Below, piece after piece: positions 30,412 to 32,119 of a DNA stretch of 64,000 nucleotides. The notes under the pieces were generated by a model. The model did no database searches. It was not told the origin of the DNA and saw nothing but the letters and a program-made list of their open reading frames with translations. Source of the stretch: Lachnospiraceae bacterium. GTDB taxonomy: Bacteria > Bacteroidota > Bacteroidia > Bacteroidales > Muribaculaceae. The stretch is from the NCBI GenBank assembly GCA_023663655.1, contig JAMPGZ010000005.1, forward strand, positions 1 to 64,000. Reading direction: 5' to 3'. Positions within the stretch are counted from its first letter, which is position 1, and every line of letters starts with the position of its first letter. The translations under genes and the position numbers were made by a program.

Positions 30412-30525
30412 CGGAATTATTCGTTCAGTTATAACGCCTACATGGGTTTAAATTGTTTTCATAATGTGCATAAAAGCTCCTAATAGTTAAAAAGAGTTAA
30501 CTTATGAAATTTTTAAGCACATATT

Positions 30526-30556
30526 TTTGGTGAATTAAATTTAATCCGTACCTTTG
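30526..30556 (+). promoter_or_regulatory. Consensus promoter facing a gene-free region
   Basis: TTTG (30526-30529), a 19-base spacer, TACCTTTG (30549-30556): an exact match to the Bacteroidetes consensus. No protein-coding gene follows for 1.7 kb on this strand, so the product is probably RNA. Confidence 0.7.
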
Positions 30557-30562
30557 TAACAG

Positions 30563-30626
30563 TTTTTCATGGTATTAGATTTAAGGTAAAAAGATTATTC
30601 GTCGTGATGACGAGTAATTTTTTTTT
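30563..30626 (+). ncRNA. Short RNA or attenuated leader ending at an intrinsic terminator
   Basis: Starting about 7 bases after the promoter box, the transcript would contain GGTATTAGATTTAAGGTAAA (30571-30590) and then the stem ATTATTCGTC (30594-30603) / GACGAGTAAT (30609-30618) followed by nine T. All parts of a small terminated RNA are present in 64 bases. I have an impression that the GGTATTAGATTTAAGG element recurs in Bacteroidales genomes, but I cannot confirm it here. It could also be an attenuator for a longer RNA that reads on into the structured block. Confidence 0.5.
30594..30626 (+). terminator. Intrinsic terminator close to its promoter
   Basis: A 10-bp stem with one G-U pair, a 5-nt loop and a T9 run, only about 40 bases from the predicted transcription start. 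Confidence 0.7.
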
Positions 30627-30679
30627 ATTATCCTATCCGAAAATTCCCCCAAAAAGAAATAAACCGAAAGTATATAGTA

Positions 30680-31020
30680 ATACTGTCGGGGTTAAAAGTT
30701 TAAATACGGAATCCCCGCCGACAACGATGGCGGCTTCGTGTTGGTGGTCTGTGCACATTGATTAAAGGACCAATTTCAAGCAGTCTTTCAGGTCATCTCC
30801 TGAAACTTAGCGAAGTGTAACTTCGGGCGACTCCATCTGCTTCCGCTGTCGTTGTCGGTCGGGTTCTGCGGGTGAGGTGCCTGTCGGAGTACTCCAACGG
30901 ATCCGTGCATTCGCGGCGTGGCTCTCGGGGCTGACTGTAGCCGGCTGATGTCAGCGTCCTTCGGGCGTGTTGCCGTGATTATGGCGGAACCGTGACGGGA
31001 TTCCTCTCCCGCAGATTGAT
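30680..31020. other. GC-rich, hairpin-dense block: candidate structured RNA
   Basis: The block stands out from its AT-rich flanks and shows several exact stems: TTTCAGG/CCTGAAA (near 30787), CGAAGT/ACTTCG (near 30810), GCTGAC/GTCAGC (near 30930), CGGGA/TCCCG (near 30996), and a long-range near match CCGACAACGATGGCGG (near 30718) to CCGCTGTCGTTGTCGG (near 30846). No open frame looks like a protein. I looked for RNase P, tmRNA and SRP signatures and did not find them. Strand unknown: a consensus promoter lies to the left on plus, and a TATCTTTG box at 31036-31043 on minus. Confidence 0.4.
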
Positions 31021-31049
31021 ACCGTTATGTTTGGGCAAAGATAGTGAGG

Positions 31050-31200
31050 GTTTGTCGGGGATTTACCCACTTTTTATCCCCATGTGTCGATTTTTTTTTG
31101 TAACACAGGCTCGTCCCGTCCGGGACTCGTTTTTTTGTGGGTCGTCCCCCCCGACTTCGCTTGCTCAGTCGGGGATAAAAACGGATTCGTGCCTATCGGC
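31050..31200. other. Hairpin-rich intergenic DNA
   Basis: Contains GGGGAT/ATCCCC around 31057-31081, GTCCC/GGGAC near 31120, CCCCGACT/AGTCGGGG near 31150-31175 and GTGCC/GGCAC near 31190, and two T-runs (31091-31099 and 31131-31137). These may be terminators or extragenic palindromes. No gene is supported. Confidence 0.4.
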
Positions 31201-31262
31201 ACTTAGCTCATTTGGGTCTAGTCCGTTGGTGGACGACATTTTGACAGGGTAGTTCGTGGGAT

Positions 31263-31320
31263 GCGGTCTGCAGGACCGTGAGAGCTTAGCCCGGCATGTA
31301 GCGCCAGCGGAATGCCGGGT
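31263..31320 (-). repeat. Inverted partial copy of the 136-bp repeat
   Basis: Reads on the minus strand like the first about 58 bases of the tandem unit (ACCCGGCATTCCGCTGGCGC onwards, then a CGGTC/GACCG hairpin). It faces copy 1 across a 90-base spacer, so the two could form a large cruciform. The hairpin loop differs but the stem is kept. Confidence 0.75.
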
Positions 31321-31410
31321 CACAGATAGTATCTCCAAAATATATAGAGTTCCGGAGGAACGAGACAATTGTATCGCTCTTACAGAGCTTAATTTTAATT
31401 GTCGACCAAT

Positions 31411-31875
31411 TTACCCAGCATTCCGCTAGCGCTACATACTGGGCTAAGCTCTTGCGGTCATACTGACCGCTTCTTATACAACACAAACAATACGGAATCG
31501 ACTCACAACTCGATATAAACATACAACCCGGATTACCCGGCATTCTTTACCCGGCATTCCGCTGGCGCTACATACTGGGCTAAGCTCTTGCGGTCATACT
31601 GACCGCTTCTCATACAATACAAACAATACGGAATCGACTCACAACTCGATATAAACATACAACCCGGATTACCCGGCATTCTTTACCCGGCATTCCGCTG
31701 GCGCTACATACTGGGCTAAGCTCTTGCGGTCATACTGACCGCTTCTCATACAATACAAACAATACGGAATCGACTCGCAACATGGCATCAACATACAACC
31801 CGGATTACCCGGCATTCTTTACCCGGCATTTTGCTGACGCTACATACGGCTGATGTCTTGCGGTCATACTGACCG
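31411..31875 (+). repeat. Tandem repeat, 136-bp unit, three copies plus a partial fourth
   Basis: Copies start at 31411, 31547, 31683 and 31819 (partial, to about 31875), all spaced exactly 136 bases. Copies 1 and 2 differ at about four positions; copy 3 diverges in one short block (near 31776-31791). Each unit holds the hairpin GCGGTCA-TAC-TGACCGC and begins and ends with an ACCCGGCATT element. No protein frame runs through the array. It resembles an extragenic palindromic element amplified in tandem. Confidence 0.9.
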
Positions 31876-31965
31876 ATTTTATTGTTGGAAGTAGTATTTT
31901 ACGGAGTTAAGTTGAGTTGGTTTGCTTTTTGAGGGATATTGAGCTATTTGCAAGGGAAAATATGT

Positions 31966-31973
31966 TATATTTG
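31966..31973 (+). promoter_or_regulatory. Possible -7 box before a small RNA
   Basis: TATATTTG fits TAnnTTTG. The nearest upstream TTTG (31947-31950) is only 15 bases away rather than 19-20, so the promoter is uncertain. Confidence 0.35.
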
Positions 31974-31979
31974 CAGGAA

Positions 31980-32119
31980 AATAAAGCGGTTGTAGGTAGA
32001 GTGCATGATAGTTTGGAACGGAGCATTGTTGCCAGTGGCATCAACATGAGGGCGTCGACAACCCCGCTTACAATCGCGTAATTAAAATAACTTCAGGATT
32101 AATCCAGAAGTTATTTTTT
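31980..32119 (+). ncRNA. Candidate small RNA of about 140 nt
   Basis: Between the TATATTTG box and a strong terminator, the sequence can fold with outer pairing GCGGTTGT (31986-31993) to ACAACCCCGC (32058-32067, two-base bulge) and an inner GTTGCC/GGC..CAAC hairpin (near 32028-32045). The end is the hairpin AATAACTTC/GAAGTTATT with T6. It has no tRNA, SRP or known riboswitch signature that I recognise. The terminator may instead serve the decayed minus-strand gene beside it. Confidence 0.4.
32086..32119. terminator. Strong hairpin terminator, usable in both directions
   Basis: Stem AATAACTTC (32086-32094) / GAAGTTATT (32107-32115) with the palindrome GGATTAATCC in the loop, flanked by a T-run on plus (32114-32119) and by TTTTAATT on minus. 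Confidence 0.7.

Follow-up and report, generated by a model that had tools for sequence, protein, structure and literature searches.

Most dispersed repeats of bacteria are either remnants of transposons or short palindromes in the DNA. Repeats of the ERIC/MITE type are short, intergenic, non-coding or weakly coding, strongly structured, present in many copies and restricted to particular clades, and the guide RNAs associated with IS200/IS605 elements (omega RNA, HEARO) are structured RNAs carried inside dispersed mobile DNA. Bacteroides additionally has multicopy small RNA families under one shared promoter, and FopS, an RbpB-associated RNA of ~70 nt, represses SusC-like transporters in Bacteroides thetaiotaomicron (PMC11697453). 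The locus described here, found in a 64,000-nucleotide stretch of contig JAMPGZ010000005.1 (the window), has the appearance of a new, dispersed RNA element as opposed to a single housekeeping RNA gene; a literature search returned no relevant report of similar repeats.

The body of the element (30704–31030, minus strand) is read from right to left and is predicted to yield a two-domain RNA of ~330 nt. The preliminary description had drawn attention to a GC-rich block at 30680–31020 that was unlike its flanks, and the GC profile agrees, rising from 0.23–0.33 (30450–30700) to 0.65 (30850–31000) and falling to 0.42 by 31000–31100. The block is therefore real, with edges that were slightly misplaced: aligned copies share a sharp edge at ATACGGRATCCCCG (30704–30717), before which the sequence is unique, such that the 3' edge of the body (CGGGGATTCCGTATTT) falls at ~30704 and the repeat unit extends to ~31030, or to 31070 if the promoter is included. 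Inverted repeats corresponding to the reported stems are likewise present, and the block's folds are more stable than all 100 dinucleotide shuffles on the plus strand (MFE −142.9 kcal/mol, z −4.10) and on the minus strand (MFE −115.2 kcal/mol, z −3.94) alike.

A long-range pairing enclosing about 140 bases had also been proposed, and two were found, one for each domain. Domain II (30713–30863) is closed by an inverted repeat of 21 nt (30713–30733/30843–30863; 81 per cent, arms 109 nt apart) and domain I (30865–31015) by one of 13 nt (30865–30877/31003–31015; 92 per cent, arms 125 nt apart), so that two long-range stems with 110–125 nt inside each split the block in two. The core of domain II (30778–30842) combines an invariant AAGCAG/CTGCTT stem and a conserved junction (ATGGAGTCGCC and CTAAGTT) with two covarying hairpins (30811–30825 and 30786–30805) taken from the sequence and its folds. 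Further inverted repeats lie at 30930–30955 and in the palindrome at 30883–30898, which forms a domain I hairpin (GTTGGAGT/ACTCCGAC). When copies are folded one by one, an outermost stem also appears, between a 3' arm at 30706–30713 and a 5' arm at 31018–31025. R1, a covariance model for domain II, recovers the window copy at 30716–30863 with 166.5 bits (E 1e-37), the window copy having been included in its construction.

Comparison of lineages (window type A, subtype B, the sister species G149 and two copies from G151) indicates that much of this fold has been maintained. Duplex energies were summed over the cognate arms of each stem and set against the sums for every permuted set of partners, and the cognate arms ranked best for the outer stem of domain II (1/120), for its hairpin hp3 (1/5040; four A variants, G149 and the two G151 copies) and for the outer, mid and apical stems of domain I (1/24 each). 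Picking the arms in folds of these very sequences favors pairing generally but gives cognate partners no advantage over non-cognate ones. The GGAG hairpin of domain I (30883–30898; 4/24) and the outermost stem (3/24) were not discriminated by this test, and the latter is thus a stem that folds but is weak under permutation. In a model-fitted alignment of domain II 92.7 per cent of cells pair, and 13 pairs and 50 cells have changed on both sides (0/500 shuffles); an unfitted MAFFT alignment agrees, with a weaker signal (20 cells, 0/500 shuffles; 8 pairs, 22/500). Compensatory base-pair changes consequently exceed chance, as in a structured non-coding RNA.

A known RNA family was rejected as an identity for the element. 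Rfam 15 gave no match over 30704–31070 at the gathering threshold or at E<5, and homologues of the element in 11 loci gave none at E<0.5, the single tRNA recovered (L009) lying outside the element. A sub-threshold match to GibS starts within the neighboring FopS gene and ends at 30697, again outside the element. The earlier suggestion of a large structured RNA of no known family is thus supported, both by these searches and by covariation across copies and species.

What is not supported is the setting proposed for that RNA, a single gene following a promoter–attenuator pair. The supposed pair is a complete FopS-family sRNA gene on the plus strand (30560–30627; RF04319, 62 bits against a gathering score of 56), with a promoter and a terminator, outside the element and convergent with it. 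Transcription of the element from this upstream position was rejected, given that FopS ends at its own terminator. The element belongs to a dispersed multicopy family with its own promoter on the opposite strand and at the other end, GTGGGTAAATCC-N15-TATCTTTG (31036–31070, minus strand), and at that end most copies carry GTGGGTAAATCC, 15 bases and then TAYCTTTG, reading the minus strand. TAYCTTTG fits the TAnnTTTG consensus of the Bacteroidetes −7 box. It is this conserved promoter that favors a reading in which the RNA would be made from the minus strand, from ~31028 to 30704, since a comparison of G-U with A-C appositions was mixed: domain II columns hold 11 G-U and 7 A-C, a weak minus lean in an alignment that is itself minus-biased, whereas window-type copies lean toward the plus strand, with minus-sense A-C, which on the plus strand is G-U, outnumbering G-U. 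The latter count, together with the plus strand being at least as stable on folding and an inverted repeat (GGGGAT...ATCCCC) with a T-run behind it on that strand at the promoter end, might indicate that the fold acts at the level of DNA or through the plus strand and not as a minus-strand RNA, be it as MITE-like hairpins, a bidirectional terminator or a site bound by a DNA-binding protein. We regard this as highly improbable, as no conserved promoter directed into the element along the plus strand was seen, the N15 spacing to TAYCTTTG is fixed in most copies and species, and the internal loops have conserved sequences.

The assemblies were fragmented in all comparisons, and the copy numbers given here are lower bounds. 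In the element's own genome blastn of the block returned 44 matches, many of them partial and at contig ends, as expected of repeats, and 8 matches besides the window copy are near full length (85–93 per cent identity); R1 detects one partial copy and 18 that are complete or nearly so. Copies are dispersed in both orientations, and the promoter pattern GTGGGTAAATCC-N15-TAYCTTTG occurs 25 times (13 forward, 12 reverse) against 0 for a reversed control. Among 14 genomes of the genus the promoter is confined to the own genome and the three sister species G149 (6), G150 (1) and G151 (3), with 10 genomes lacking it, and the element body is found in the same four species. R1 matches 3 of 397 genomes of the family; the fourth species, G150, has partial copies only. 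An exact 20-base core occurs in contigs of G149 and also at places such as L065, L067 and L071, where it resembles unrelated coding sequence. A phage origin was set aside: viral contigs are without the conserved core, and the one promoter-pattern match (L143) is coding-like and has no element. That the best candidate for an RNA gene can prove to be a repeat argues for checking copy number early.

The promoter is not restricted to the element: it stands before an unrelated multicopy gene family in G149 and before one gene in G151 as well, which suggests a regulated promoter with a role outside the repeats. The latter, a single-copy-looking gene (MISSIPEIK...), is at L121 (G151:C15). The former, a gene beginning MRNTVHIPRPRREV..., is found at L113, L117, L145 and L149–L151 in G149 and G150, with the same promoter in G149. 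Its product is at least ~300 aa (the longest single-copy open reading frame is 331 aa) and its conserved 3' tail ends in GGCAGCAAAA; it has no Pfam match and no convincing PDB match, and none was obtained among 393 genomes from the order, a set from which G149 and G150 may have been missing.

Such a promoter would fit a reading of the copies as a functional multicopy family of trans-acting regulatory RNAs under one regulated promoter, in the manner of a larger FopS, with copies made together and kept uniform by dosage and concerted evolution. This is the main rival to a mobile element and, on balance, a rather unlikely one. It gains from the conservation of the promoter beyond the body, from the invariant unpaired motifs of domain II, from recurrence of the element in the interval between the MG2 and M16 genes in three species, and from the precedent of shared-promoter multicopy sRNA families in Bacteroides (PMC11697453). 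It is opposed by the 10 other genomes of the genus without the element, by the variation of structured parts between copies and the frequency of partial copies, and by the fact that no candidate target or partner was found.

The surroundings of the copies bear on the same choice. Full copies in the own genome are 85–94 per cent identical among type A and 72–77 per cent identical to subtype B, whereas the window copy differs from a G149 copy at ~41 per cent of aligned sites. A G149 element 97–98 per cent like that G149 copy sits near the end of the MG2 gene that flanks the window copy, G150 elements adjoin the MG2 and M16 orthologues in the orientation seen in the window, and the MG2–M16 interval holds the element in three species in one orientation. 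Copies that are alike within a species although their neighborhoods are shared between species imply concerted evolution or rapid turnover, and hairpin variants common to subfamilies A and B suggest exchange between the two. Upstream of thiD the elements of the own genome and those of G150 and G151 are in opposite orientation, judging by ORF coordinates. The thiD gene and a TPP-riboswitch-like sequence also lie downstream of an apparent internal-deletion derivative of the element (L114, G150:C23; L118, G151:C11) in which the start and end of an open frame are joined. Downstream of the sister-species element (L092, L104, L045, L048, L051) is a hairpin whose GGGCCC loop is conserved while its arms vary. 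A comparison with an empty site by way of an OmpA-like gene gave no synteny, and a workable one came from the M16/FopS side of G150, where some two dozen bases separate a nearly identical FopS from the M16 peptidase gene that follows it (L108), as against ~1.67 kb with the element and a repeat block in the window; this difference is either an insertion in the window or a loss in G150.

That repeat block, second to the element and separately dispersed, lies outside the RNA at 31260–31880. The sequence at 31264–31880, which recurs at L021–L040, contains a 136-bp tandem array (31410–31847) and CCGGCATNCCGC palindromes, and a query of 31020–32100 gave 115 matches in the own genome. The block often adjoins the element and has a weak, sub-threshold resemblance to Acido-Lenti-1.

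A riboswitch or cis-acting leader was rejected. The neighboring genes are unrelated and in either orientation, and the next gene 3' of the RNA, 0 to several hundred bp away, is co-oriented in about half of the copies and convergent in the others, at distances of 0–268 bp in the convergent cases. The reading we prefer, and hold to be somewhat probable, is that of a dispersed, intergenic, promoter-bearing element of a small Bacteroidales clade, non-autonomous as far as was seen, with an RNA fold selected for the element's own maintenance. Each copy would consist of the promoter and, after it, an RNA of ~330 nt whose two covarying domains are probably enclosed by the outer stem; copies would spread by copying into intergenic sites and would be homogenised by recombination or turnover. 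Because the genes beside the element are not the same from copy to copy and may face either way, the fold would serve the propagation or stability of the element and not the regulation of its neighbors.

There is also evidence against a mobile element. The recurrence in the MG2–M16 interval in one orientation would fit an old functional site too, and no known mechanism of transposition is supported, given that no transposase, consistent target-site duplication or long terminal inverted repeats were seen. ORFs were listed around the copies, and no TnpB, IscB or TnpA was noticed next to those examined. No consistent duplication of 11 bp or more emerged from the 10 copies with both flanks, one of which has a flanking direct repeat of 20 bp that is a likely site duplication. 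This repeat, CTAACGACATTAGAGCCTTG, lies on both sides of the copy (L002:1478 and L002:1947), and a similar hairpin sequence occurs beside L007 and L008. As for terminal inverted repeats, just one 8-bp pair, AATCCCCG/CGGGGATT, was seen near the element ends, and the outer end is not fixed, with neighboring repeats adjoining. It is conceivable, although we think it doubtful, that these copies represent a new class of mobile element that is spread or kept by way of a large structured RNA that has a promoter to itself, the copies being made uniform inside each species while compensatory changes maintain the fold; in such a class the RNA is possibly catalytic or protein-recruiting.

A different origin is raised by the copies of G149, G151 and subtype B, which share an open frame of 120–130 codons from a matching ATG with a common motif, RKQMESP. 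The copies could then be a degenerate family of protein genes with a basic product of 120–130 aa in the sister and subtype B copies, the window-type copies being pseudogenes, and in keeping with this the G149/G151 alignment has gaps whose lengths are divisible by three and equally long frames are found in only 3.6, 0.5 and 0.6 per cent of shuffled sequences. Substitutions, however, are spread evenly over codon positions (22/20/23 and 19/20/19) with no third-position excess, so no constraint on amino acids is seen; all nine of the window-type copies that were checked are interrupted by stops in each of the three frames while retaining fold and promoter; survival of the frame under random substitution is not very improbable (13–19 per cent); and the product has no Pfam or NCBIfam match. 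A protein gene was set aside on the family searches and the codon positions, and the degenerate form of the idea appears improbable. By its reading frames, the RNA may carry, or may once have carried, a weakly constrained frame.

The preferred, self-maintaining element can be placed among the known systems as follows. With the FopS family it has in common that these are intergenic, multicopy RNA genes of the Bacteroidales with a common promoter; FopS, however, is ~70 nt long, carries its seed single-stranded at the 5' end and has a terminator (PMC11697453), and the element is ~330 nt long and matched no Rfam model. Like omega RNA and HEARO it places a structured RNA in dispersed DNA, but it matches neither HEARO nor any other Rfam family and no TnpB, IscB or TnpA was noticed beside its copies. 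A clade-confined, species-uniform, two-domain repeat of this kind amounts to a natural series of compensatory mutants, and raises the question of whether its RNA drives spread, regulates genes or encodes a little-constrained peptide. The likeness to ERIC/MITE-type repeats lies in dispersal, intergenic location, many copies, secondary structure and clade restriction. The element differs from them in that long terminal inverted repeats and a consistent target-site duplication were not found and no related transposase was noticed beside the copies, and further in its ~330-nt length, its two separately covarying domains and a conserved promoter of its own.
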